NCBI RefSeq assembly: GCF_001541095.1
Contig: NZ_LMXH01000008.1
Coordinates: 62,001 to 126,000 of the forward strand
Origin: Paenibacillus sp. FJAT-26967
GTDB lineage: Bacteria > Bacillota > Bacilli > Paenibacillales > NBRC-103111
Direction: 5' to 3'
Length of the DNA stretch: 64,000 nt
Below the pieces are notes generated by a model that searched no databases, was not told the DNA's origin, and saw nothing but the letters and a program-made list of their open reading frames with translations. Below, in pieces: positions 9,389 to 61,573 of this stretch. Position 1 is the stretch's first letter; each line of letters starts with the position of its first letter. A program made the translations under genes and the position numbers.

Positions 9389-12300
9389 ATGAAAAAAAGG
9401 ATGGTAAGAACCATCAATTTGTTTTTGTCTTTACTTTTAGTGTTTACAATTTTGCCTAGTTATAGTTCAATGGCAAGTGCTGATGAGATTGTTAGAGTAA
9501 CGAAAACTCTCAACCCGACTCAAATTTTGGAGGGGGGAGAATCGAATGTTACCCTTAATATACAAGGATCAGATAGTGTTAACGTTGTTAAGCCTAATGA
9601 TATCATATTGATTATTGATAGATCCGGTAGTATGGATCCTAAGAATAATAATGGCGAAGATAAAATGACAAACGCCAAAAATTCTGCTACTGGATTTATA
9701 GACTTACTTGATTTTACTAAGCATCGCGTGGGTGTTGTAGACTTTGCGAGTAATGTGGGATTTAGAGATCTATCCTCTAATCCGGCAGATGTTAAAAACT
9801 ATATTAATGGAATAAAGGCATCTGGCGGTACGAATACAAAACTGGCAATTGAAATGGCTCGTGAGTTATTAAGAGGTCATAGACCCGAGGCACAACCGGT
9901 TATTTTATTACTTACAGACGGAGAAGCTACTGAACCAGCCCCAGTTGATAATGCACGGAGAGCAGCTCTAGAACAAGCAAATGGGGCCAAAAGTGAAGGA
10001 ATTGTTTTTTATACAATTGCTTTGTTAAAACAGAACGAGAATCCCAATACCAGTGCACCGAATTTGTTAATGAAAGATATGGCGACTACGGCTCAACATC
10101 ATCACTTCGTACTCGGCTCAGTAGGATTAGCTGAGATTTACCGGGCTATTGTGGAAGAAATAGGGATGGCGAGCGCCTACGATGTTACCGTTAAGGATAC
10201 AGTTGCCCCAGAATTTGAAATTGTTCCCGGATCCTATAAAGATAATATTCCACAGCCAACTGTGGTTGGAAATACATTAACATGGACTTTTAATGAATTA
10301 AAAAAGGAAACGCTTACTTTTAATTACAAGATCAGACATAAGACCGGAGAGAGAGTGGGACATCTATCGGTAGGTAACGAAGATATTGATGTCAATTTTA
10401 AGGATTATTTAGGTGCTCCACATCAATTGAAAGTGCCTAATCCATTTTTAGATGTAGCATATCCAACACCACAGATCACATCTCTTGTGGAGGATAAAGG
10501 CCTGGTTCAAGGTGGAGAAACAATAACCATACATGGAACAAATTTTAGGGCGAACCCAAAGGTGAGTTTCGGGAATACCGAAGTAAGTCCGGTACAATTT
10601 ATTGATTCTAGTAAGTTGGTTGTGGTTGCTCCCCCAGGTACCCAAGGAACAGTAGATGTTAAAGTGACCAATGAGGATGGACAATATGCAACTGCTCCTT
10701 ATCGTTATTTTGCTAATCCGGAGTTTCTATCTGTTACCCCAAGTCAAGGTGGCTTAACAGGGGGAAATGAGGTTGTAATTGCAGGGAAGTACTTCTTGCC
10801 TAATCCTCAAGTTAAATTTGGGCAAAATGAAGCAACCATCAAAAGCTCTACAAATACACAGATAGTTGTGACAGTACCTCCCGGCGATACAGCAGGATTT
10901 ATAGATATTGAGATTATAAACACTGATAACACTAATGTTAAAGCTAATAATATATATGAATATGTAGAAGGTCCGCATCTAGAAACAGTAACACCAAACC
11001 AAGGATCGACCAAAGGCGGTGAACTTGTTTCTATTAAAGGGACTCATTTCAAAGAGGGTGCGGTTGTTAAATTTAATAATACCGTCGTAGCAACCCAATT
11101 TATAAATGAAATGGAGCTTAATGTAACAACACCACCTTGGTTCAAAGCAGAAACCGTTAAAGTTACCGTTGTTAACCCAGACAAGCAAGAGGGTTCATTA
11201 GAGAACGCATATAGTTATTTGAACCCTGCCCCTACGATAGAATCTATTACCCCGAATACAGGCTTAGTATCTGGAGGAGATCTGGTATCGATTGTGGGTA
11301 ATGATTTTATGCCAGGCGCAAAGGTTTTATTTAAGGATAAAGAAATGATAAGCAGTTTTATTGATTCTAAGCATTTAAGAGTTAGGTCCCCACAGTGGAA
11401 TCAAGAAGAAATAGTGGACATTGTAGTTAAGAATGAGGATGGTCAATCTGCTGTAGCTACAAATGCCTTCTCCTATAAGCTACCGCAAGGGGCTGTATTA
11501 ATCTCTCTTTCTCCCAATAGTGGCCCTCTAGAAGGTGGTAATCAAGTAAGTGTTAAAGGAGCTAACATAAGCAGCAACTCATCTTTATACGTAGCGGGCG
11601 TGAAAGTACCTTTTGTTTATGTCTCAAGCGAGCTCGTTACATTTAAAGCACCAGTAACGACTAATGCAGGAAAAGTTGATGTCAAATTAGTCGACACATA
11701 TAACCGGGAAAGTATTCTGCCAGAAAGTTACGAGTATATAGCGCCACTGCCACTCCCTGTTCCAGTGATATCGAATATAACACCTTCTGAGACTCTCAGA
11801 ATTGGTGGAGAGTTTATTTATGTAAATGGAGATAGTTTTCAGGAAGGGGCAACTGTTTGGCTAAATGATATTAAAATAACAGCGGTATCATTTATAAATT
11901 CTAAACAATTACGCTTTAGAGCTCCTGTATGGGACAAAGAGCAATTGGTTGCTGTTAAAGTAATAAATCCAGACAATCAATATATTGTTCTATTAGATGG
12001 TTTAAGATTTAAGGACCCAGCTCCTGATCCAGCTCCAGAAATTATCTCTTTAACACCGGATTCAGGTGAAATAACAGGTGATTATTTTGTTACGATAAAT
12101 GGAAAATTCTTTAAAAGTGGAGCAAAAGTATATTTTGGATCAAAGGAATTGTCGGCTTCCTATCTAAACGATACTCAACTACGTGTACGAGCTCCACAAT
12201 GGAATTTAGCTGGCCCGGTAGAAGTGAAAGTAAAAAATCCAGATGGGCTTGTAGCAAGCAGCAATTTTACCTACACTCCTCCTGTTCTTGGACCCGCCCC

Positions 12301-13357
12301 TACAATTTCTAGTTTTAGTCCTGCTCAAGCATCAGTAGCGGGAGGGATTCTAGTCCTAATAAATGGAGAGAACTTCACTGCACAATCTAGTGTGAAATTT
12401 GGTGACAAGGTACTTATCGCTTCATTTTTATCCGATAAGCAACTACGTGTAAGAGTACCGGCATGGCCAAAAGCTGAAAAAATTAATGTTACTGTGTTGA
12501 ATGCGGATGGACAAGCGGCAGTATCCAGTGCTGGCTTCGAATACATTCCAGCTCCAGCAGCCGTTATAACGAATTTAACCCCAAATCATATGCAGTTGGA
12601 CCTTGGCGAACTTGTGATTATTAATGGAGAGAACTTTGAGACAGGTACCAAGATATATTTTGGGGATAAAGCGGCTACCGTTTCGTTTCTTACTGATAAA
12701 CAACTCAGGGTCAGGGCACCTATCTGGAGTACGGCTGAAGTAGTTTCTATTAAAGCTGTAAATCCAGACGGACAAGTCACTACTTTGGCAAACGGGTTTA
12801 CATTCGATCCGATACCTATGAAACCAGCGCCAGTCATCACTACAATCTCTCCTAATCATGCGCTTCAGTCAGGTGGAGATCTGATTTATATTAATGGTTT
12901 TAATTTTATTGATGGAGCCAAAGTATCGATTGATGGGGGGACTCCTATTGCTGCCTCATTTTTTGGCACCTCACAACTACGGTTCAGATTGCCGGCCTCT
13001 TCAAAGCTAGGCCCAGTTGAAGTCAGAGTTATTAACCCTGACGGGCAATTTGCAATAGTGGCAAATGGGTTTATATTTGACCCGATACCTATGAAGCCCG
13101 CACCAACTATTTCTACCATTTCTCCAAATAATGCAGTAAATACAGGTGGAGATTTGATTTATATAAATGGTTCTAATTTTGTCGAAGGGGCAAAGGTTTC
13201 AATAGATGGCGGTGGGCTAATTACGGCTTCATTTATAAGTAGTTCACAACTACGGTTCAGATTGCCTGTATCTTCAAAAACTGGACCTGTTGATATTAAA
13301 GTTATCAATCCAGATGGACAAACGGTTACACTTGTTGGTGGGTTCACTTACCGGTAA
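9389..13357 (+). CDS. secreted von Willebrand A domain protein with eleven IPT/TIG repeats
   Basis: The 1322-residue protein starts with a signal peptide (basic MKKRMVR, hydrophobic core, cleavage probably after SMASA). A vWA domain at about 65-255 has the MIDAS motif DRSGSMD and LLTDGEATEP, which bind a divalent metal in adhesion proteins. A beta-rich linker follows, then from about residue 360 to the end eleven IPT/TIG immunoglobulin-like repeats, each ~85-91 residues and starting like ITxxxPxxGxxxGGxxVxIxGxNF. The last two are nearly identical. No LPXTG motif, S-layer homology domain or C-terminal membrane anchor is visible, so how it is held at the surface is unknown. It begins 18 bases after fliT behind CGAGGGGG and is followed by a terminator, so it reads as part of the flagellar transcript. 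An adhesin or filament-associated role is inferred. Confidence 0.85.
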   Translation: MKKRMVRTINLFLSLLLVFTILPSYSSMASADEIVRVTKTLNPTQILEGGESNVTLNIQGSDSVNVVKPNDIILIIDRSGSMDPKNNNGEDKMTNAKNSATGFIDLLDFTKHRVGVVDFASNVGFRDLSSNPADVKNYINGIKASGGTNTKLAIEMARELLRGHRPEAQPVILLLTDGEATEPAPVDNARRAALEQANGAKSEGIVFYTIALLKQNENPNTSAPNLLMKDMATTAQHHHFVLGSVGLAEIYRAIVEEIGMASAYDVTVKDTVAPEFEIVPGSYKDNIPQPTVVGNTLTWTFNELKKETLTFNYKIRHKTGERVGHLSVGNEDIDVNFKDYLGAPHQLKVPNPFLDVAYPTPQITSLVEDKGLVQGGETITIHGTNFRANPKVSFGNTEVSPVQFIDSSKLVVVAPPGTQGTVDVKVTNEDGQYATAPYRYFANPEFLSVTPSQGGLTGGNEVVIAGKYFLPNPQVKFGQNEATIKSSTNTQIVVTVPPGDTAGFIDIEIINTDNTNVKANNIYEYVEGPHLETVTPNQGSTKGGELVSIKGTHFKEGAVVKFNNTVVATQFINEMELNVTTPPWFKAETVKVTVVNPDKQEGSLENAYSYLNPAPTIESITPNTGLVSGGDLVSIVGNDFMPGAKVLFKDKEMISSFIDSKHLRVRSPQWNQEEIVDIVVKNEDGQSAVATNAFSYKLPQGAVLISLSPNSGPLEGGNQVSVKGANISSNSSLYVAGVKVPFVYVSSELVTFKAPVTTNAGKVDVKLVDTYNRESILPESYEYIAPLPLPVPVISNITPSETLRIGGEFIYVNGDSFQEGATVWLNDIKITAVSFINSKQLRFRAPVWDKEQLVAVKVINPDNQYIVLLDGLRFKDPAPDPAPEIISLTPDSGEITGDYFVTINGKFFKSGAKVYFGSKELSASYLNDTQLRVRAPQWNLAGPVEVKVKNPDGLVASSNFTYTPPVLGPAPTISSFSPAQASVAGGILVLINGENFTAQSSVKFGDKVLIASFLSDKQLRVRVPAWPKAEKINVTVLNADGQAAVSSAGFEYIPAPAAVITNLTPNHMQLDLGELVIINGENFETGTKIYFGDKAATVSFLTDKQLRVRAPIWSTAEVVSIKAVNPDGQVTTLANGFTFDPIPMKPAPVITTISPNHALQSGGDLIYINGFNFIDGAKVSIDGGTPIAASFFGTSQLRFRLPASSKLGPVEVRVINPDGQFAIVANGFIFDPIPMKPAPTISTISPNNAVNTGGDLIYINGSNFVEGAKVSIDGGGLITASFISSSQLRFRLPVSSKTGPVDIKVINPDGQTVTLVGGFTYR
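12794..13339 (+). repeat. tandem 273-bp repeat encoding the last two TIG units
   Basis: Two in-frame units of exactly 273 bases (12794-13066 and 13067-13339) encode 91-residue copies that share FDPIPMKPAP, GGDLIYING and SQLRFRLP and include identical DNA such as CAACTACGGTTCAGATTGCC. The other nine repeats are much more diverged, so this pair looks like a recent duplication. Confidence 0.8.
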
Positions 13358-49233: not shown

Positions 49234-50202
49234 CTAGACCCACCACATATCGCCGAGAGGTTCTTTTATAAGAATCTGCTGGAGATTCTGAACAGCTTTG
49301 GTAAAGCCCTCGTCAATGGACATGAGGCCGTCCTCGTGCTCAATGCTGACGACATAGTCGTAACCGACCAGACGCAGCGCGCTGATAATGTCCGCCCATG
49401 TCTTCATGTCGTGACCGTAGCCGACTGTACGGAACTGCCAAGCGCGGTCCAGCATAAGGGCGTAGGACTGCATGTCGGTGACGCCGTGTTTGTTCACATT
49501 GATCGGATCAATCGATGTATCTTTGGCATGGAAGTGATGGATTGCATTAGCACGGCCAAGGATTTGAACCGCCTGCACCGGATCGATGCCCTGCCACCAC
49601 ATGTGGCTGGGATCCAGGTTAGCGCCAATGACATCGCCAGCCGCTTCGCGCAGACGCAGCAAGGTAGCCGGTGTGTGGACGGAGAATCCGCCATGCAGCT
49701 CCAGCGCGAGCTTGATGCCGCGGTCCGATGCGAATTTACCGGTTTCCGTCCAATACGGAATCACTTTCTCAGACCACTGCCAGTCTAGAATCTCTTGAAA
49801 ATCGTTCGGCCATGGTGCTACCGGCCAATTCGGATATTTGGCATCTTCATGGTCTCCCGGGCAGCCGGAGAATCCGACAACGACAGGAACCTCAAGCTTC
49901 TCAGCCAATTCCACCGTCCGGTAGAATTCATCGTGATATTGCTTGGCGATAGCTTTTTGAGGGTGAAGCGGATTGCCGTGGCAGCTCAGCGCCGAGATGG
50001 TAAGTCCGCGGGAATCAAATGCTTGTTTGAATGCTTTCAGCTTGCTTTCGTCAGCGAGTAGTTCTTCAGGCTTGCAGTGGGCATTACCTGGATAACCGCC
50101 GGTACCGATTTCAACGGCTTCAACGCCTTTTTCTGCGATATAATCGAGTGTTTCTTCTAGAGGCTTTTGTCCGAACAGGACAGCAAATACGCCTAACTTC
50201 AT
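49234..50202 (-). CDS. sugar phosphate isomerase/epimerase-like TIM-barrel protein
   Basis: The 322-residue protein belongs to the xylose-isomerase-like / AP endonuclease family 2 TIM barrels. It begins MKLGVFAVLFGQKPLEETLD and shows metal-ligand positions at strand ends: the Glu in KLALELHGG, the DPSH of GANLDPSHMWW, HHFHAKD and the final SIEHEDG. The strict arrangement fits a metal-dependent sugar isomerase or epimerase rather than a DNA repair enzyme. The substrate cannot be told; no sugar transporter is next to it. The start is ATG at 50202 with GTGGAGGTG upstream. Confidence 0.85.
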   Translation of the reverse strand: MKLGVFAVLFGQKPLEETLDYIAEKGVEAVEIGTGGYPGNAHCKPEELLADESKLKAFKQAFDSRGLTISALSCHGNPLHPQKAIAKQYHDEFYRTVELAEKLEVPVVVGFSGCPGDHEDAKYPNWPVAPWPNDFQEILDWQWSEKVIPYWTETGKFASDRGIKLALELHGGFSVHTPATLLRLREAAGDVIGANLDPSHMWWQGIDPVQAVQILGRANAIHHFHAKDTSIDPINVNKHGVTDMQSYALMLDRAWQFRTVGYGHDMKTWADIISALRLVGYDYVVSIEHEDGLMSIDEGFTKAVQNLQQILIKEPLGDMWWV

Positions 50203-50513
50203 ATGGTTACACCTCCACGAATTTTAAAAAGAACGCGCGTACACTTGTTATTATAGCACCGCTTTCCAAGGAAATGAAGCGTCAGTTCCTGTTGAATATC
50301 AGATGTGGCTAAGAGATACAAACATTAATTAAACAATGGTCAATAAAAAATGACAGATAGACCAAGTATTTCACAGCAGCGGACAAATCATTCCTAAGGA
50401 ACTAGTCATCTTCAGACCAGATTGGAATGAAATATCGTCTAGCGCTTGCAAGTAACGGCAGGTAAGGACTTTAAAGGCGGCCCCTAATAAAAAAGCTTTC
50501 CACTCGACCGTTC
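50203..50513. other. intergenic region with isomerase promoter element
   Basis: A minus-strand TATAAT (50250-50255) lies about 50 bases upstream of the isomerase start, with no good -35. At 50512-50526 a small CCGTTCT/AGAACGG palindrome spans the stop of the MBOAT gene, and a T run of the minus strand follows further along, possibly a weak terminator. No gene is supported. Confidence 0.4.
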
Positions 50514-51665
50514 TTAGAACGGCAAATGGAAAAGCCCTTTGTAAATACGCATCACTCTATCGTAATCGTTCATGTTGATAATAATCGCGGCTACAACGAG
50601 CACCTGGGTAAGCAGGCAGCGGAAGTAGAAATAAGGTTTGGATACCTTCCGGCGGATCACCGTCGTTTTGCCAAGCAGGTTCTCAATCGCAATAATCACA
50701 CCATGATACACCCCGTAGATCAGGAAGAGCCACGAGAATCCATGCCACAGTCCCATCAGCGTCATAATCAGGATCGAAAGTCCGGCGGTCATCAGCTTGG
50801 ATGGTGTTTTGCGTGAAAAGAAGATGAAAATGTGGTCCCGGAACCAGTCTCCGAGGGTTGCATGCCAATTACGCCAGAACTGTGTGAGTGTAGGGGACGT
50901 GAACGGCTTCTTGAAATTCTCCGGAATCGTAAAGCCCATGAGCCGTCCGAAGCCGACCGCAATGTCCGAGTAACCTGAGAAATCCACGTAAATGAGCAGG
51001 TAGAACCAAATCATTAAGAATATACTCTGGTGGGTATGTAGCTCCTGCTTCATCACGATGTTGAAAATATCGGTCATCCAGACGACAACCACGACTTTCT
51101 TAAACAAACCCAGAATGATCCGTTTGACTCCAAATTGAAATTCAGCGGAATCGACGCGGTAAGGTTTTTTCAGATCAGCCATAAAGTCGCGGAATTTCAG
51201 GATCGGACCCGAAGTGAATGTCGGTACGAATAAGATGTAATTCACATAATCGAGCAGTTTGACCTGCCCTTCTTTACCGAAAAAATAAGCGAAATACAGC
51301 GCATCGATAATTTTCAGCACATTAAAGAGCAGTCCGAGCGTCATCAAGCCGTCCGCCAGGAAGGATCCTTCGGTGTTTTTGCCAAGCATGTGAAACAAGA
51401 CGACCGCGCCAATATTAGCAAGAATGAATAAGGCGAACGAGAACTTCCGCCAGACGGGTGTCCGGCATAAGTAGACGAACATTACATAATTGACAGCGGA
51501 GTAGATGAGATAAAAGGTGAACAGCTTGCCGCTCCACAGAAACAGGAAGCCGACATTGAACAGCAGCATCAGAATGCGCTTGTTCTGGGGCCATTTTCTT
51601 GTTGCCATCAGCACGAACACCATGCCGCACATGGCTAGCAGCGCATTCATGTTCAAATAAAACAT
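50514..51665 (-). CDS. MBOAT-family O-acyltransferase, DltB-like
   Basis: The 383-residue polytopic membrane protein has about ten hydrophobic segments and the MBOAT hallmarks: FWRNWHATLGDWFRDHIF and the catalytic His in MGLWHGFSW (about residue 308). DltB proteins take an aminoacyl group from a carrier protein on the inside and pass it across the membrane for polymer esterification. Here it is the last gene of a minus-strand operon with a carrier protein, a ligase, a DltD-like and a DltX-like protein. The start is ATG at 51665 with AAGGAGTCC upstream. Relatedness to alginate-type MBOATs (AlgI) is possible from sequence alone; the DltX neighbour favours DltB. Confidence 0.85.
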   Translation of the reverse strand: MFYLNMNALLAMCGMVFVLMATRKWPQNKRILMLLFNVGFLFLWSGKLFTFYLIYSAVNYVMFVYLCRTPVWRKFSFALFILANIGAVVLFHMLGKNTEGSFLADGLMTLGLLFNVLKIIDALYFAYFFGKEGQVKLLDYVNYILFVPTFTSGPILKFRDFMADLKKPYRVDSAEFQFGVKRIILGLFKKVVVVVWMTDIFNIVMKQELHTHQSIFLMIWFYLLIYVDFSGYSDIAVGFGRLMGFTIPENFKKPFTSPTLTQFWRNWHATLGDWFRDHIFIFFSRKTPSKLMTAGLSILIMTLMGLWHGFSWLFLIYGVYHGVIIAIENLLGKTTVIRRKVSKPYFYFRCLLTQVLVVAAIIINMNDYDRVMRIYKGLFHLPF

Positions 51666-51802
51666 AGCAGGACTCCTTAATAAACGGAGAATCGGTAGGG
51701 TCTACAGACAGGCAGGCAAGCAGACAAACAAGTCAGCGTATAAGCAGACACGGAACTTGGCCGGCAGCGTCCTAACTTGATTGAGGTCTTGTCACAGCCT
51801 TC

Positions 51803-51913
51803 TTAGAACCCTTCATAAATAAACAATCCCTGTCCGGTGAAATAAACCAGTACCAGGTAGAGCATGAGGAGATAGATTAAGATTTCTGCGGTTTTCTTAA
51901 AGAAAGCAGCCAT
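51803..51913 (-). CDS. DltX-like small membrane peptide
   Basis: This 36-residue frame starts at ATG 51913, inside the 3' end of the DltD-like gene (37-base overlap), with a strong GAAGGAGGT ribosome binding site. The peptide is one hydrophobic helix (EILIYLLMLYLVLVYF) with a basic N-terminus (FFKK) and ends LFIYEGF. DltX peptides have one helix and a conserved C-terminus close to FIYNEF, so the ending fits well. DltX is thought to work in the DltB acyl relay through its C-terminus. Its place between the dltD-like and dltB-like genes supports translation. It is missed by ordinary length cut-offs. Confidence 0.75.
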   Translation of the reverse strand: MAAFFKKTAEILIYLLMLYLVLVYFTGQGLFIYEGF

Positions 51914-52782
51914 GCGTCAACCTCCTTCGTAAACACCGGAGCGCCTTCTTCACGGTTAAGGTGGACCAGGTCATGGAACAGTCCGGGTTCGTACCGGTCC
52001 ATAAGGTCGAGTACAGGCACATCGGATGCTTGCAGACGGCTGTTCACTTCCTGTTTCATAGCTTCGGTATAAGGGGGCTTCTCATGTCCTTGAATGAAAG
52101 GCATCCAGACCACGCGCAGGGGCAGGTTCCGCTGTTTGCTGTAGGTAATGACCCACTGGAGGGCCTCCACATTGTCTTTCATATCTGCGAGCGTCATCCA
52201 GTTATACTTCTCGTTATAGCGAGCCCAGTCCTTCACAAGCTGCTCGGAGCTTTCCCGGCCGTAGTAAAGCTCTTTGTCGATCCAGCGCGGCTGATAATCG
52301 AGGCTCCCCTTCAAAGCAAGATTACGTACGAATTCCGTGCCTGTATCTAAAAAATCTGCCCGGTACGCATATACATAAGGCTTGTACCAGGGCTTGTGCC
52401 ACGGAAACCGGTAGTCGGTATCCATCTTGTCCAGCATCGTATGCACATCGATCCCTATGACAAGCTCGCCCTGCACATTATAAAGTTCCCGCTGAAGAAT
52501 TTCCTTCAGATCGGTTAATTTCCCGAGGGACATTCCCATTTCGACGAGCTTAACAGAAGATTTGTCTTCCATGTAAGCACCCGTTACAGCGGAGTTTCCA
52601 TAGAAAACAGCCCCTGTACGCGACCAGTTGTGGTGGTACAGCGTTTTGGTAAAATCGTCTTTGGCAAAACGGCGGCTCGTCTCCATCGGATTCCAGAACA
52701 TCAGTCCGATCTCGGCGAGTACAAAAATAAGAAGCAGCCCCAGGACGAAGCTGTTCTTCTTAAGAAAAGCGGGTATGTTCAC
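51877..52782 (-). CDS. DltD-like membrane-anchored SGNH-fold protein
   Basis: The 301-residue protein has one N-terminal membrane helix (FVLGLLLIFVLAEIGLMF) and then an extracytoplasmic domain. A Ser in VFYGNSAVTGAY (Ser64) and the late DLVH motif (Asp271, His274) form a plausible SGNH catalytic triad. DltD finishes D-alanyl transfer to teichoic acids; this protein is shorter than typical DltD and only distantly similar, so the acceptor may differ. AlgX/AlgJ-like acetylation proteins are the alternative. The start is GTG at 52782 with AGAGTGAT upstream, 13 bases after the ligase gene stop. Confidence 0.7.
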   Translation of the reverse strand: MNIPAFLKKNSFVLGLLLIFVLAEIGLMFWNPMETSRRFAKDDFTKTLYHHNWSRTGAVFYGNSAVTGAYMEDKSSVKLVEMGMSLGKLTDLKEILQRELYNVQGELVIGIDVHTMLDKMDTDYRFPWHKPWYKPYVYAYRADFLDTGTEFVRNLALKGSLDYQPRWIDKELYYGRESSEQLVKDWARYNEKYNWMTLADMKDNVEALQWVITYSKQRNLPLRVVWMPFIQGHEKPPYTEAMKQEVNSRLQASDVPVLDLMDRYEPGLFHDLVHLNREEGAPVFTKEVDAWLLSLRKPQKS

Positions 52783-52795
52783 GCGCTATCACTCT

Positions 52796-53995
52796 TTATA
52801 TGGATTTTTCTTGCCAAGCTGTATACTGCTCACGGAACGATGCCGGCCAGTTAGCCTGATCCATTCCGTACTGGGCGAGGAACGCAAAGGCCCACCGTTC
52901 AATGCCGAAGCCCACACACCCTGTAACGGCCGCACGCTTGCCGACTTTAATGTCGAAGGCGTTGCCGAATGTGTTGCTGTGGAAGTTAACGGAGCTGCAC
53001 GCAATGGACTTATCCAGGTAAGGAATCGTCAGGCGCAGTTCGTACTTCATCTCCTGGTTGCGCTGGAACGAAGCTTTAACTTGGAAGTCATTCGTGAAGA
53101 ACGGATCGTTAGCGATCTCAAGCAAGCTGTCGACTTCCCATTCAACGGCGAGTTCTTTTAGATATTCAATCGATTTCAGACGGTTTTCTTTAACGAAATC
53201 CGGCTTGCCTACGAAAATAATTTCCCGCATGGAGAAATCGAGCAGACGGCCAAAGTCACTGTGGTTCTTCGATTCAAAACGGTGGCATTTGGCAATGGCC
53301 GTTACTACGATGCCGTCACTATCCAGCGTCTCCCCTTGAAGGCCTTCATAACAGTGATAGCAGGTCGATGGGTTCATCGTGAATTTCGGTTTTGGCATAG
53401 TGGCATTGAGATCGAGCGGAAGCTCGTCCTTCCAGCCGCCGGTTTCGCGGATCGAGTCAGAGAATGACTCAATAACGTCCAGATCTTCACGCAGATGCGT
53501 CAGGAAATGGATGTGTTCCGGGAATGAAGTGAAATGGTTCGTCTTGTTGAGTGTTTCGGAATGAATAACGGCGGGATAATGCTCTTCCGTAACATCGAAC
53601 CGGTTAGCGATCTTGGTCACGAATGAATAGTCGAGGAAACGCATCAGCGAAGAGAAGGGCTCCCGGAAAATAAAGAGGCCGGGCTCAAGTACTTTCATAC
53701 TTTTGCTTTCGACCAGCTCGCGGATAATGTCATCGTGATGAGGAACGGCGACTTCATTGCGGAAAAGGATGTTTTCCTTAAAACCGAAATCTCCTTTGGA
53801 GAAACGCTCGATAAGACGTTCCACGCGTTCCATAATCGCTTCGCTTCCTGCGGGGGATGTATGAACAATGCGAAGCTGTCCGTCATGCAGCGTAATTTCT
53901 TGAATATGTTCATCCACGAAGGCGGATGCGTATTTGACCTGGCCGTGTTGACTCTCGTGTAGCCGCTCCAGAGATATAGTGCATTCCGTGGTCAT
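52796..53995 (-). CDS. class II aminoacyl-tRNA-synthetase-like amino acid:[carrier protein] ligase
   Basis: The 399-residue protein has the catalytic core of a class II synthetase but no tRNA-binding domain. Visible elements are the motif 2-like CHRFESKNHSDFGRLLDFSM (237-256) with MREIIFVG, motif 3 GFGIERW (362-368), and cysteines C212 and C333 placed like the zinc ligands of the carrier-protein ligases; SSVNFHSNTFGNAFDI is another family-like segment. Amino acid:[carrier protein] ligases, known from Bradyrhizobium, are SerRS relatives that adenylate Gly or Ala and load it on a carrier protein's phosphopantetheine. The gene starts 5 bases after the carrier protein gene behind GGGAGGTAA. It stands where dltA would be expected. 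The amino acid used is unknown. Confidence 0.82.
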   Translation of the reverse strand: MTTECTISLERLHESQHGQVKYASAFVDEHIQEITLHDGQLRIVHTSPAGSEAIMERVERLIERFSKGDFGFKENILFRNEVAVPHHDDIIRELVESKSMKVLEPGLFIFREPFSSLMRFLDYSFVTKIANRFDVTEEHYPAVIHSETLNKTNHFTSFPEHIHFLTHLREDLDVIESFSDSIRETGGWKDELPLDLNATMPKPKFTMNPSTCYHCYEGLQGETLDSDGIVVTAIAKCHRFESKNHSDFGRLLDFSMREIIFVGKPDFVKENRLKSIEYLKELAVEWEVDSLLEIANDPFFTNDFQVKASFQRNQEMKYELRLTIPYLDKSIACSSVNFHSNTFGNAFDIKVGKRAAVTGCVGFGIERWAFAFLAQYGMDQANWPASFREQYTAWQEKSI

Positions 53996-53999
53996 GGTG

Positions 54000-54251
54000 T
54001 TACCTCCCGGTTTTCGTGGAAATGAAATGTGCGATTTCTTGGATGGTGTTCATGGGATACAGCATCAGATCCTGATTGGTCACCTGAATGCCATAAGTTT
54101 GCTCGATATGGGCTATCAGTGCGGTTGCTCCCATGGAGTCAATGAACCCGTAATCAAACAGATGTACGTCTGTGCCGAAATCCTCATCGTCTGCTTCAAT
54201 CTCATAGCGGCTGCGGATATGCTCTTCGAGCTGCTGGATGATATCTTCCAT
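54000..54251 (-). CDS. acyl/aminoacyl carrier protein, DltC-like
   Basis: The 83-residue acidic, helical protein has the phosphopantetheine attachment site in FDYGFIDSMGATALI (Ser39), the DSL-type motif of carrier proteins, followed by the usual helix 2 and a TIQEIAHFI end. It should be converted to the holo form by a phosphopantetheinyl transferase and receive the amino acid from the adjacent ligase. I choose ATG 54251 with TAGGAGG 10 bases upstream; an ATG at 54275 contains that site. It is the first gene of the dlt-like operon; the stop lies 4 bases before the ligase start. Confidence 0.88.
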   Translation of the reverse strand: MEDIIQQLEEHIRSRYEIEADDEDFGTDVHLFDYGFIDSMGATALIAHIEQTYGIQVTNQDLMLYPMNTIQEIAHFISTKTGR

Positions 54252-54300
54252 GTAAATGTAGCCTCCTAAAGTCATGCGGAATTTATAAAAGAAAGTTGTC

Positions 54301-54329
54301 AGGCATCAGAGCTTCCGCTTCTGATGCCT
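54301..54329. terminator. hairpin between the FG-GAP gene and the dlt-like operon
   Basis: AGGCATCAGA (54301-54310) pairs with TCTGATGCCT (54320-54329). On the minus strand it lies after the large gene, with T-rich sequence a few bases further, so it may end that transcript or lower read-through into the carrier protein gene. Confidence 0.55.
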
Positions 54330-54357
54330 GCAACGGCAACATGTAGAGCTAACTTCA

Positions 54358-57300
54358 TTATTGGGGGTTTCCCAAAGAAATGGAAAGGGAAGTTTTGTCC
54401 CCGTAGCGGGTTATTGTGTACGTGCTTGTCTTCTCGTCATGCCTAATCTCAACATCCTTAGGGTTTCCGGGAATCGATAGACCCTGTGGACTGTAGATCT
54501 TGATCTGCTGCATGCCTGCAGCCTGAAGATCGAGTTTCCAAATGCCGGTCTGTCCTGCGTCCAGCGCGAACGGCACATTAGATCGGACAATATGTGCCTG
54601 CTCGGCTCCTTTGCCGATATGAAGCTCTGCGTCCTCCCCAAGGCCAAGATAGAGCTTGCCCTTCTGCTCCGTGTACACGACCGCATCAGCAGCCAGGGAG
54701 TAAGGCGCGTATTTCTCGCCTTTCTCGATCACAACGCCAGGCGTATTCGTATATTCAGCTGCCTGTTTCGGAACACCGGAGGTGTCCGCTTGCAGCCGGA
54801 GAGACAGATGAAGGCCTTTGTCGAACAGGCGGTCTTTGACGTTGTCGATTATATAATCGGCCCAGCTACGGCTGACCGTGATCCGGGTTGTTAAAGTCGC
54901 CAGGAACGAACGCGCCATCTGGGGCTCCGTCATGAAGTTGTAATCATGCTGAGTACGGATTTCATCCAGATAAGAAGCGAAGGTTTCCAGGTCTCCTACA
55001 CGATCCGGGAAATGATATTCGATATGCTCGAAGTAATCAATCGGCATATCTCTCTTCACATAGGAATCGTAAATGTCCGTTGTGGAGTTCGCGCCTTCTT
55101 TGCGAAGCACGGGAGCCGGCGTGTAGATGAGCATGGGCTCCCCGGAGCTGCCTCCGTCAGCGTCCTCCAGAAGAAACGGCAGCCCCCATATATAATCGGT
55201 GCCGAGCCGCGGCTCGGTAGGCGTATGGGACGGTGTAAAGCCGAAATTGAACCATATATCCTGATCCCGCTCATTGTTAAGCGTCTGCAGCCGGTCCGGG
55301 AAATTAATCCGCCAGGTATGCTGGTTCGTTCCCGGCATTACCCACGGAATCCCGAGCTTACCGAACGCCTGCTTATGCAAGGCGAGTTCTTTCTTTTCCT
55401 GGTCATCGCTGAAAAAATTATGGACGAATACGTGCGGATACAATTCCAGATGATTGTCCTTGGTATATTGCAGAAACTCCTGCAGCTGTTCTTTGTAAGG
55501 GAAATCCGGCGAATCCAGCGGAACCGGAGAACCGAATTCCAGCTGTCCGACGATGAGGTCGATGACGCCGTCGCCGTTCACGTCGTGCCACACCGGCACG
55601 GAGTTGTGTCCTCCGACCAGGGCATTGGTCCCCATCTGATTCAGTGTGGTGCCGTTTACCGTCCCCTGGTCGGTCCAAGTTCCGCCGCCTTCTTGGCGGA
55701 ACACGCGAAGATCTCCCTCGTTGCTGCCGACAACGAGGTCTGCTCTGCCGTCGCCATCCATATCACGGACGGACGGCGCGGCGTACTTCGCGCCGACGCT
55801 TACAAGTTCGGCGGCGGCGGAGAGCCGCAGCGCGCCTGCCTGCGGCGCGCGGTACAGCCAGACCTTGCCGTCCGCGTCACCGACGGCAAGGTCTGCGGTA
55901 CCATCGCCGTCGACATCGCCGACGGCGGCCACAGCCGGTCCGGGCACACGGATGGGCCCGGCGGGGTCCTGCAGGGCGGTTAGCGGAGCGAACCGCCCGC
56001 TGCCTTGGCCGAGCGCGATCCGCACGGCCCCGGTAGAGTCGCTGACGATGAGGTCAATCTGACCGTCAGCGTTCCAGTCCGCCGCATGCACGGAAGCATG
56101 CGGGCCTGTCTGCAGCGGCTGTCCGCCGTCCAGCAGCAGCTTCTCGGGCTTGCCGTACGCGTCCGGCAGCTTCAGGCCAGCCGGCGCGGAGTCGCGCTCG
56201 TACATCTCGGGCTTCTGGCCGAGATTCGGATACATATAGATGTATCCGTCGCTGCTGCCGGCAAGGAGGTCGTCCCGTCCGTCTCCGTTCAAATCGGCGA
56301 ACGCCGGTACGAGCCGGTGCGGCTTATCCAAAGCATCCGCAAGCGAGCGGTAGTCCGGATATTCCGCGAGCCGGACAGGCCCGCCTTCAGCCTGCAGATG
56401 CATGCCGCTGCTGTAATAGGATGCCGGCTTCTCGCCGCTGAACGCCGGCTTCTCGTTGGTCCCCTCGTTGAGCTGCACCGTGGCGCTTTCTTTCCACTGT
56501 CCCCAGTAGAATGCGGAGCGGACAAGGGAGTACGAGGGAATCTGATTGTATTTCTTGGTCAGCTCGGCCCATTGAATGCCTTCTTTATTCTTGAACGCTG
56601 GCATCGCTTCAAAATGATTCTGGTAAGCCATTGCGGGCCGTCCGTAAGGACCGAGTATTTTGGTGGCGCTGTAGCCGTAAATTTCCTTGGATACATATGA
56701 CACGAATTCGGTACGCAGCTGAGCGCCCGCTGACGAGAAGGCAAAGTGGAAATAGGGCTCCAGTTTCAAGTCTTTCTTGTCAAAATAAGTCGTGCCGGGA
56801 TCTAGCTGCCGGCTCTTGTTGTATTGAGTGACGAGGCTGCCGAACCCCTGCTTAGGGTCCATACCGCTGGTCAAATCATAACCCGTTATGAAATACCGGT
56901 TAGGGAGGAACGTACTGGTTAAGAGCACCGTACCTTTACCATACTTGTTGCGGGCCACAATGGCTTGTCCGTCGAGCATAACCAGAGGCTCTGCTGTCGA
57001 AGGGTCCAGACCGTAGCCCCAATAGAACCCGGGCATGCTGTCCATTGATTCCCTTTTGAAGAAATTATCACTGAACAGCTTCATGACTTCCTGCAAGCCT
57101 TGAACGTTGGTCCCGACTGCGGGGTATTCAAATTTGGGCTTGGTCTGGGGAGCTATAAGCTTGGTTTGATAGGCACCCAGGAAGTCCGCAGGAAACATGC
57201 TGGCGAAACTATTGTCGAGTAGCAGATGGCCGCCATTTTCCACATAATCTTGCAGTTTCCTAAGGTAGCCTTTATCCGGGATATTGGCAAGTCCGGTATC

Positions 57301-57555
57301 CGGGACAACGGCGTCGTAAGCACCGAGCTGACGGTCCGACAATGTGCCGATCGGCTTCCGCTCTACCTTCAAGTTTGCTGCTAAAGATTGCTGGAACTGT
57401 CCGAATGCCGCTGTATCGAATTGATCTCCATTCGTAGCATACAAAAGGCGCACTTCTTCCTTTTTGGAAGTCAGGACAGCGGCTGCGCCGATCAGTACAA
57501 GCAGAGCGATTATACCAAACACTGCTGCAGTGTAACGTTTTTTCGACAAATTCAT
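54358..57555 (-). CDS. large membrane-anchored FG-GAP/VCBS repeat protein with GATase-like N-terminus
   Basis: The 1065-residue protein starts with a membrane anchor or signal (RYTAAVFGIIALLVLIGAAA), then a Rossmann/GATase-like region (about 30-260). From about 415 to 690 are five calcium-loop FG-GAP/VCBS units (LNGDGRDDL, WNADGQIDL, VDGDGTADL, MDGDGRADL, VNGDGVIDL). The C-terminal ~370 residues include a possible deacetylase- or glycosidase-like barrel (HVFVHNFF, MPIDYFEHIEYHF) and a beta-rich end. I do not recognise a characterised homologue; a surface polysaccharide enzyme is a guess. The ATG 57555 touches its GAGGG; TTG 57549 would have better spacing. The repeat region is very GC-rich. 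It lies just upstream of the dlt-like operon in the same direction. Confidence 0.7.
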   Translation of the reverse strand: MNLSKKRYTAAVFGIIALLVLIGAAAVLTSKKEEVRLLYATNGDQFDTAAFGQFQQSLAANLKVERKPIGTLSDRQLGAYDAVVPDTGLANIPDKGYLRKLQDYVENGGHLLLDNSFASMFPADFLGAYQTKLIAPQTKPKFEYPAVGTNVQGLQEVMKLFSDNFFKRESMDSMPGFYWGYGLDPSTAEPLVMLDGQAIVARNKYGKGTVLLTSTFLPNRYFITGYDLTSGMDPKQGFGSLVTQYNKSRQLDPGTTYFDKKDLKLEPYFHFAFSSAGAQLRTEFVSYVSKEIYGYSATKILGPYGRPAMAYQNHFEAMPAFKNKEGIQWAELTKKYNQIPSYSLVRSAFYWGQWKESATVQLNEGTNEKPAFSGEKPASYYSSGMHLQAEGGPVRLAEYPDYRSLADALDKPHRLVPAFADLNGDGRDDLLAGSSDGYIYMYPNLGQKPEMYERDSAPAGLKLPDAYGKPEKLLLDGGQPLQTGPHASVHAADWNADGQIDLIVSDSTGAVRIALGQGSGRFAPLTALQDPAGPIRVPGPAVAAVGDVDGDGTADLAVGDADGKVWLYRAPQAGALRLSAAAELVSVGAKYAAPSVRDMDGDGRADLVVGSNEGDLRVFRQEGGGTWTDQGTVNGTTLNQMGTNALVGGHNSVPVWHDVNGDGVIDLIVGQLEFGSPVPLDSPDFPYKEQLQEFLQYTKDNHLELYPHVFVHNFFSDDQEKKELALHKQAFGKLGIPWVMPGTNQHTWRINFPDRLQTLNNERDQDIWFNFGFTPSHTPTEPRLGTDYIWGLPFLLEDADGGSSGEPMLIYTPAPVLRKEGANSTTDIYDSYVKRDMPIDYFEHIEYHFPDRVGDLETFASYLDEIRTQHDYNFMTEPQMARSFLATLTTRITVSRSWADYIIDNVKDRLFDKGLHLSLRLQADTSGVPKQAAEYTNTPGVVIEKGEKYAPYSLAADAVVYTEQKGKLYLGLGEDAELHIGKGAEQAHIVRSNVPFALDAGQTGIWKLDLQAAGMQQIKIYSPQGLSIPGNPKDVEIRHDEKTSTYTITRYGDKTSLSISLGNPQ

Positions 57556-57694
57556 CCCTCAATTATGTGTATGATCCATGCCATTATAGCACTTCTGCCG
57601 GGGTTTGTTAACTTAAGAGACGGAGGGGATCGGTCTGCATCAGAGTGGTGCAGGGGGAGTGCAAATAGAAAGATAATACCGAAAAACATGTTCA

Positions 57695-60187: not shown

Positions 60188-61573
60188 TTAGAATTGAAGT
60201 TTGGATTCAATGAACGCCTTCAATTCGCTGATCGGCATACGGGTCTGTTCCATCGTGTCGCGGTCACGGACCGTCACTTGTCCGTCCTGCTCGGAATCGA
60301 AATCGTATGTGATGCAGAAAGGTGTACCGATTTCGTCATGGCGGCGGTACCGTTTGCCGATCGAACCGGTATCGTCATATTCGACCATGAAGCTCTTCGC
60401 CAGGTCCGAGAAGATCGCTTGCGCGCCTTCGGACAGCTTCTTCGACAGCGGGAATACAGCTGCCTTGAAAGGTGCCAGTGCCGGGTGCAAATGCAGCACG
60501 GTACGGCTGTCGTCGCCTTCGAGCTTCTGCTCTTCGAATGCATCGATCAGGAACGCCAGAGTTACGCGATCCGCGCCAAGTGAAGGCTCGATACAGTAAG
60601 GAACGTATTTCTCATTGCCGGCTTCTTGGTCAACATAGTTGAAATCTTCGCCGGAATGCTCCATGTGCTGTTTGAGGTCGTAGTCCGTACGGTCCGCAAT
60701 GCCCCAGAGCTCGCCCCAGCCGAACGGGAAGCGGTACTCGATGTCCGTTGTTGCATTGCTATAGTGGGACAGCTCGTCGTCGGAATGGTCACGCAGACGG
60801 ATGCTGTCTTCTTTGACACCCAAATTCAGGAGCCAATCACGGCAGTAAGCGCGCCAGTACTCGAACCATTTCATATCTTCCCCGGGTTTGCAGAAGAATT
60901 CAAGTTCCATTTGTTCAAATTCACGCGTACGGAACGTAAAGTTGCCCGGCGTGATTTCGTTACGGAAGCTCTTACCAATCTGGCCGATGCCGAACGGGAG
61001 TTTTTTGCGCATCGTACGCTGTACGTTCTTGAAGTTAACGAAGATGCCTTGTGCGGTTTCCGGCCGCATGTACACGACGTTGGAGCTGGATTCCGTTACG
61101 CCTTGGAAGGTCTTGAACATCAGGTTAAACTGGCGGATATCTGTAAAGTCACGGCTTCCGCAGTCGGGACATGCGATTTCATGCTCATCCATCAATGCTT
61201 TCATCTGATCGAAAGACAGGCCGTCTACGACAAGCTCGATGCCTTTGGCATCTAAGGCGTTCTCGATGATTTTATCGGCGCGGTGGCGTGCTTTACACTG
61301 CTTGCAGTCGATCATCGGATCATTGAAGTTGCCCACGTGGCCGGATGCAACCCATGCTTGCGGGTTCATCAGGATAGCGGCATCCAGTCCCACGTTGTAA
61401 GGAGACTCCTGGATGAATTTTTTCCACCATGCACGTTTGACGTTATTCTTAAGTTCTACGCCCAGCGGGCCGTAATCCCAAGTATTGGCGAGACCGCCGT
61501 AAATTTCGGAACCCGGGAAAATAAAGCCTCTGTGCTTGGCGAGTGCTACGATCTGCTCCATGTTTACGCTCAT
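60188..61573 (-). CDS. glyQS: glycyl-tRNA synthetase, alpha2 type
   Basis: The enzyme charges tRNA-Gly. The 461-residue protein is the single-chain alpha2 class II type found in eukaryotes, archaea and some Firmicutes, not the GlyQ/GlyS heterotetramer. It shows [14 protein letters not shown] at the N-terminus, motif 2 in [21 protein letters not shown] (quoted in parts: [12 protein letters not shown]), a zinc-like CKQC...CPDC insertion and [10 protein letters not shown] motif 3. The start is ATG at 61573 with AAAGGAGCG upstream. A T-box leader controls it. The C-terminal anticodon-binding domain ends [11 protein letters not shown]. Confidence 0.97.

Follow-up and report, generated by a model that had tools for sequence, protein, structure and literature searches.

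A conserved six-gene locus of Paenibacillus predicted to encode a Dlt-type transmembrane aminoacylation pathway with a synthetase-related ligase

Introduction

Could a descendant of an aminoacyl-tRNA synthetase supply amino acids to the cell envelope through a set of Dlt-like membrane proteins? The question is raised by a locus of Paenibacillus sp. FJAT-26967 (GTDB family NBRC-103111) that lies in a stretch of 64,000 nucleotides, referred to here as the window (contig NZ_LMXH01000008.1, positions 62,001 to 126,000 of the forward strand). The first-pass annotation of the window had described a dlt-like operon of five tightly packed genes in which a synthetase-like ligase replaces DltA. All five (carrier protein, ligase, DltD-like protein, DltX-like peptide, and membrane-bound O-acyltransferase, MBOAT) are indeed found on the minus strand at 50514-54251, but the unit had been drawn too small, as a sixth gene immediately upstream, encoding an FG-GAP protein (54358-57555), had been overlooked. 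The unit is thus larger, and also far more conserved, than the first reading could tell. We propose that it very probably encodes a pathway of transmembrane aminoacylation of the Dlt type, with an activating enzyme that descended from a class II (SerRS-type) aminoacyl-tRNA synthetase. The six genes, in the order of transcription, are as follows.

54358-57555, minus strand: gene 1, FG-GAP envelope protein (1065 aa; FG-GAP_3, E = 2e-30)
54000-54251, minus strand: gene 2, carrier protein (83 aa; PF00550, PP-binding, E = 3.6e-11; Ser39 in DSM)
52796-53995, minus strand: gene 3, amino acid:[carrier protein] ligase-like protein (399 aa; NF005479, E = 8.5e-45)
51877-52782, minus strand: gene 4, putative SGNH/DltD-like extracytoplasmic acyltransferase (301 aa, GTG start; GNS and DxxH motifs)
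51803-51913, minus strand: gene 5, putative DltX-like acyl-shuttle peptide (36 aa; C-terminal FIYEGF, Tyr33)
50514-51665, minus strand: gene 6, DltB-type MBOAT (383 aa; PF03062, E = 4.7e-25; catalytic-type His308 in GLWHG)

The ligase and its carrier protein

What kind of enzyme is the ligase? Against NF005479 (amino acid--[acyl-carrier-protein] ligase), it scores 153 bits (E 8.5e-45; cut-off 357), and by its sequence it is a relative of the amino acid:[carrier protein] ligases that falls outside NCBI's curated NF005479 subfamily. It also matches the C-terminal part of NCBI's SerRS models. In a profile search of the PDB, the amino acid:[carrier protein] ligase Bll0957 (3mey; E = 2.2e-26) ranked above type-2 SerRS, with 103 bits to 3mey vs 86 bits to the type-2 SerRS 3w3s, the latter over a longer span; the identity to Bll0957 is ~30% (73 of 241 aligned residues). 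Residues C212, E258, and C360 correspond in the alignment to C151, E196, and C299 of chain 3mey and, together with R239, E241, and R367, are invariant in the ligases of 16 family members. We take the Cys-Glu-Cys set to be the zinc ligands, R239/E241 to belong to class II motif 2, and R367 to motif 3.

The absence of a tRNA-binding domain, noted in the first-pass annotation, is confirmed by the alignment to the SerRS chain 2cim. Residue 45 of the ligase profile meets SerRS residue 157, so that the N-terminal part of SerRS, which is the tRNA-binding part, has no counterpart in the ligase. Furthermore, two ordinary SerRS genes lie elsewhere in the genome, both above the model cut-off (579 bits for the main gene and 415 bits for the second, at G000:C11:842034-843284, L191). 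The partner adjoining the ligase gene is instead the carrier gene, 4 nt away in the window and no farther than 50 nt in 79 of the 80 named loci (of 87 confirmed stretches), which are all filed under Paenibacillus, Gordonibacillus, or Paenibacillaceae. Ligases of this kind have lost the tRNA-binding domain and need zinc, and the role of their aminoacyl-carriers is called unknown, in the passages of a 2022 review that concern them (PMC9437257). Those that have been characterised load glycine or alanine onto a carrier, not onto tRNA, according to the cited portion of PMC5370406.

In the carrier protein, D38 and S39 are invariant in 12 aligned sequences. Among curated models, it scores highest with that of the cispentacin carrier AmcB (32 bits vs a cut-off of 80), followed by DltC (30 bits vs 68); a further DltC model gives 24 bits, also below its cut-off.

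The genome encodes a second, distant amino acid:[carrier protein] ligase (L062:10342-11685), 28-31% identical to the first in two stretches. Its neighbours, named by reading, are a carrier, two dioxygenase-like genes, and an oxidoreductase-like gene. Since no MBOAT match was found in the 20 kb fetched around it, this ligase was rejected as a part of the system, and its locus is apparently an unrelated biosynthetic cluster.

The membrane part and the FG-GAP protein

Do the remaining genes encode a Dlt-type transfer machine? When the five proteins first described were searched against profile models, as the first-pass annotation had suggested, PP-binding, aa-[ACP] ligase, and MBOAT/DltB models were matched, and the window's own DltD-like and DltX-like proteins matched no DltD or DltX model. 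The MBOAT scores 164 bits against the DltB model TIGR04091 (E = 5e-48), under the equivalog cut-off of 375, and a PDB search with its profile leads to two DltB chains of solved structure, 8jem and 6bug (E ~1e-34), presumably from S. aureus and S. thermophilus, respectively. It aligns along its length with the DltB of the dlt loci of relatives (hhalign, 99.9%), is short like DltB, has no FxYxxF tail of its own, and retains H308 in all of the 13 aligned rows.

Such a tail is carried by the DltX-like peptide, which ends in FIYE.F in 15 of 15 aligned sequences and in 80 of 80 named loci, with Y33 invariant in the 15 rows. Called from the first start codon, its gene overlaps the SGNH gene in all 80 loci. 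The DltX model PF12459 is matched weakly by 2 of the 15 peptides.

In the DltD-like protein, a GNS motif (Ser64) and D271-x-x-H274 are invariant in 14 rows, both motifs recur in 39 relatives, and hydropathy indicates one candidate transmembrane helix. PF04914 (DltD) is weakly matched in 11 of the 39 relatives (best E = 7.5e-4) and GDSL in 7; the window's own protein matches neither of these in Pfam, its sole model match being a weak one to NCBIfam SGNH/GDSL (E = 0.0069). As judged from these comparisons, the putative SGNH/DltD protein is the weakest assignment of the set. Searches of the PDB with the DltX-like, carrier, and DltD-like profiles gave no useful match.

In the Dlt system, the MBOAT moves the amino acid from the carrier to the tyrosine of the peptide and then to the SGNH serine, and the FxYxxF motif carries the acyl-Tyr in both Dlt and PatA, as set out in the cited part of a recent paper (JBC 2025, PMC12148441). 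The other MBOAT-SGNH systems treated there use an acyl-CoA donor and bear the motif on the MBOAT itself, without carrier and peptide. Consequently, a short, tail-less MBOAT together with a separate FxYxxF peptide and a carrier marks the present gene set as the carrier-protein form of the machine.

The FG-GAP protein has one candidate N-terminal transmembrane helix (residues 10-28, by hydropathy), an FG-GAP beta-propeller at ~415-670, and a conserved C-terminal part with the motif GTNQHTWR. Its N-terminal part shows weak similarity to DUF4159/DUF2194, with DUF4159 weakly matched in 20 of 37 relatives, and by reading appears glutamine-amidotransferase-like.

Conservation of the gene set

Is the arrangement a coincidence of one genome? 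Of 104 family genomes, 96 have the ligase, with identities outside the genus mostly of 72-83%, and eight lack it (G001, G003, G013, G014, G020, G021, G080, and G087). The MBOAT of the system (≥450 bits) follows the ligase closely, being found in 94 of the 96 ligase-positive and in none of the eight ligase-negative genomes, where MBOAT matches reach ~152 bits or less or are lacking at 1e-25. The two ligase-positive genomes without it (G007 and G026) are assemblies that are 68% and 78% complete. Similarly, the FG-GAP protein occurs in 95 of the 96 and in none of the eight (1e-60), the exception (G005) being 70% complete. All 20 fetched loci, window included, preserve the six-gene order, and 74 of the 80 named loci have it exactly; in the other six, the contig ends before the MBOAT gene (three) or reading frames are split (three). 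The named loci and the 104 family genomes overlap, so these counts are not independent. The gene arrangement is not a product of chance, and the conservation in related genomes on which the first-pass annotation had staked its reading is borne out. At one locus (L058:11800-17170), ~5 kb of other genes, by reading an HD-type hydrolase, a regulator, and a peptidase, lie between the DltX-like and MBOAT genes.

How far beyond the family does the system reach? Among 392 genomes of the order, the only ones outside the family with a ligase match above 550 bits are G109 and G116 (family f7), each of which holds all six genes; the peptide of G109 ends in FLYEGF. Among 398 genomes of the class, only G500, from another order, has a ligase orthologue (637 bits). 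There the genes run carrier, ligase, SGNH, peptide (FIYEGF), MBOAT, and then FG-GAP, in a different neighbourhood beside a gene resembling groEL (by reading). Six genes that are rearranged and still stand together indicate that the linkage, including that of the FG-GAP gene, survives rearrangement. In 398 genomes of the phylum, the ligase search found nothing past 1e-45 except the window's own genome.

Other ligases score 232 bits or less and lie outside the clade of the system ligases, which is a single one with support of 100/99 (12 system rows vs 26 others, in a tree that came with a warning of long branches). The MBOAT, DltD-like, and DltX-like profiles, applied at 1e-3, found no match in any of 25 loci with other ligases (16-20 kb each).

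Relation to dlt and other known systems

Does the ligase then replace DltA in an otherwise ordinary dlt operon? There is no DltA gene within 49234-57555, and to this extent the earlier claim stands. In the genome as a whole, with 13 of 69 candidates scored, the best DltA match, in a 1254-aa frame that by reading is nonribosomal peptide synthetase (NRPS)-like, reaches 327 bits against a cut-off of 560. The check for a second, canonical dlt operon turned up one DltB-like gene only, the one described here, and no canonical dltB. Across the family, DltA exceeds the cut-off in 3 of 104 genomes and reaches 545 vs 560 bits in a fourth; the other 100 have no DltA match above 336 bits. The four DltA loci (G002, G066, G068, and G083) also hold DltB, a gene in the DltD position, and a DltX peptide with the tails FVYNEF, FIYTEF, FVYNEF, and FIYNGF, respectively. 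All four genomes carry the present system besides dlt, on broken contigs in G002.

The coexistence of the two gene sets in four genomes argues for a separate pathway rather than a swapped dltA, and the idea that dltA was replaced within an otherwise ordinary operon was rejected for this reason; the word "replaces" in the first-pass annotation was therefore too narrow, since these relatives keep dlt with its DltA as well. On the other hand, its proposal of a separate envelope aminoacylation pathway gains support from the conserved gene set and from the same four relatives. Beside its gene content, motif conservation, and co-occurrence, the system thus has an identity separate from dlt: it is a pathway usually found without dlt and sometimes beside it. 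It would work like Dlt yet, on present assignments, does not belong to the Dlt system, because the defining DltA is absent and the DltC and DltD matches are weak.

With canonical dltXABCD, the locus shares a carrier, a DltB-type MBOAT, a separate FxYxxF peptide, and a transmembrane-anchored SGNH protein; it differs in having a class II synthetase relative in place of the NRPS-type DltA and in its FG-GAP protein, for which we know of no counterpart in dlt operons. The DltD proteins at the dlt loci of relatives (393-412 aa) are barely alignable with the 301-aa DltD-like protein. Bll0957 and its kin have in common with the present ligase the class II core, the Cys-Glu-Cys set, the missing SerRS N-terminal part, and the adjacent carrier gene, whereas here the ligase is linked to a machine for acyl transfer across the membrane. 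An MBOAT, an SGNH protein, and an FxYxxF shuttle are likewise combined in PatA/PatB and other bacterial MBOAT-SGNH acyltransferases, but in the passages cited these use acyl-CoA and bear the motif on the MBOAT (PMC12148441), in contrast to the carrier protein and separate peptide found here. The lipid A glycylation system AlmEFG of Vibrio cholerae resembles it in passing an activated amino acid via a carrier to an envelope molecule. However, AlmG transfers directly to lipid A. In the cited excerpt of PMC12930378, AlmE is grouped with DltA as an adenylate-forming carrier-protein ligase, unlike the class II synthetase relative here, and no MBOAT/DltX/SGNH set is named for AlmEFG. In the literature searched (open-access PMC text, so that subscription papers could be missed), no described system had the same gene combination.

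Proposed mechanism and alternatives

How might such a pathway operate? By homology to Bll0957, the ligase would form an aminoacyl-AMP and charge the phosphopantetheine arm of the neighbouring carrier. At the inner face of the membrane, the DltB-type MBOAT would then take over the aminoacyl group from the carrier and pass it to the C-terminal tyrosine of the DltX-like peptide. From there, by homology to Dlt and PatAB, the SGNH/DltD-like protein would take it onto its own serine and place it as an ester on an extracytoplasmic polymer. The linkage of its gene suggests that the FG-GAP protein may act outside, on or in presenting the acceptor.

Several observations weigh against this proposal. The carrier is under the curated cut-offs, and its top curated model is AmcB, not DltC; the DltX-like peptide is likewise below its curated cut-offs. 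Membership of the SGNH protein in DltD is weak by sequence, as the window's protein has no DltD match and hhalign against DltD gives 52.7%, dropping to 20.3% with a deeper alignment. In the window's genome, a strong hairpin splits the FG-GAP gene from the other five. Finally, FG-GAP paralogues also occur without a ligase, as second copies in G018, G034, G056, and G090 and, in another family, in G128, a count that is a lower bound since scoring covered the top two candidates of each genome. These solo loci are L187 (G018), L185 (G034), L186 (G056), L188 (G090), and L189 (G128), the last being a longer relative, and the five neighbourhoods gave no clue to the acceptor.

Could the system simply D-alanylate lipoteichoic acid, the specificity of its ligase having shifted to D-Ala and its product being the same as that of dlt? 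The Dlt-type MBOAT and DltX-like parts fit such a role, as does a genome with no second DltB and with an LtaS-like protein (306 bits, below the cut-off of 970). Nevertheless, we consider it unlikely: the dlt operon that four relatives keep in addition would be redundant, and the FG-GAP partner is, to our knowledge, foreign to dlt operons. The characterised ligases, furthermore, load glycine or alanine, of which the stereochemistry is not stated in the cited portion of PMC5370406.

A much less probable alternative is that the carrier and ligase serve to make a soluble product or a small molecule, with an ordinary acetyl-CoA-type O-acetyltransferase made of the MBOAT and SGNH proteins standing alongside by chance. 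Other ligases of the superfamily do occur in the same taxonomic order in MBOAT-less loci, some of them beside carrier genes, the small-molecule carrier AmcB is the carrier's top curated model, and non-Dlt MBOAT/SGNH pairs use acyl-CoA (PMC12148441, as cited above). This MBOAT, however, is DltB-type, short, and tail-less and comes with a separate DltX-like peptide, features tied in that account to a carrier-protein donor, and the nearly complete co-occurrence, with a linkage that survives rearrangement in another order, speaks against chance.

Although its core resembles type-2 SerRS (3w3s) almost as closely as it does Bll0957 (3mey), a ligase that is a tRNA synthetase paralogue supplying aminoacyl-tRNA is rejected as most improbable of all, given the missing SerRS N-terminal part, the two ordinary SerRS genes elsewhere, and the adjacent carrier gene.

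The Dlt-type aminoacylation pathway thus remains our preferred reading, and its amino acid and acceptor can be narrowed by analogy. As the described enzymes of the ligase's type use glycine or alanine, glycine would be the favoured amino acid, followed by L-Ala. For the acceptor, we divide our expectation about evenly between an LtaS-made polyglycerolphosphate and another wall glycan. The former is possible because the genome encodes a 626-aa LtaS-like protein (the 306-bit match above), as well as a second of 711 aa that scores lower (57 bits); the constancy of the FG-GAP partner speaks for a step beyond the membrane in which a glycan is handled. A wall teichoic acid of the TagB/TagF type was rejected as the acceptor, as the genome has no PF04464 match at 1e-3, with a positive B. 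subtilis control.

What would the pathway mean? An amino acid:[carrier protein]-type ligase is here linked to a complete carrier-to-surface acyl-transfer machine in 96 family genomes and in another order. This linkage would give such ligases a testable biological role and turns the open role of their aminoacyl-carriers into a matter for direct assay. If the proposal is true, the DltA step of envelope aminoacylation has been solved twice, by an NRPS-type and by a synthetase-type enzyme, and a new amino acid ester is predicted on the surface of many Paenibacillus species. More tentatively, with the odds somewhat against it, this may be a core pathway of one Bacilli lineage in which the synthetase descendant supplies glycine or an L-amino acid for esters on an envelope glycan other than teichoic acid, the FG-GAP protein being the one that handles this glycan. 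It would then be a second solution to envelope aminoacylation, assembled independently of the first, and the first role outside small-molecule pathways for aminoacyl-carriers made by such ligases.

Operon structure and neighbouring genes

From the carrier gene to the MBOAT gene, the intergenic gaps are 4, 13, -37, and 137 nt, the negative value being the 37-nt overlap of gene 5 with gene 4. Two candidate signals flank gene 1:

57583-57611, minus strand: promoter-like site 5' of gene 1 (TTAACA-17-TATAAT, 11/12 consensus, TG before the -10)
54295-54334, minus strand: hairpin with a T-rich tract after it, in the gap from gene 1 to the carrier gene (by eye; possible attenuator or terminator)

The promoter-like site has the top score of a consensus scan that found 13 sites in total vs 8.5 in shuffles. 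The fold of 54250-54362 has -35.4 kcal/mol (z = -3.55), and the hairpin is absent from the list of the terminator scan. In several relatives (e.g., L046 and L050), the gap between the FG-GAP and carrier genes is just ~30 nt; the hairpin, therefore, cannot be general.

Usually next downstream of the MBOAT gene is a sugar-phosphate-isomerase-like gene (49234-50202 in the window), 78-99% identical among relatives and 25-55 nt away in some of them; it was also seen by eye in L156 (family f7). It was treated as synteny and not as a member of the system, as it has no match in L055 and L056 and is not apparent at G500. A glycyl-tRNA synthetase-like gene (60188-61573, by reading of the translation) lies two genes upstream of the operon; it was matched beside the operon within the genus (L043 and L044) and in none of the other stretches compared. 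Farther away in the window, downstream of a fliD gene, 9389-13357 encodes a protein of 1322 aa that contains a VWA domain along with eleven TIG domain stretches.

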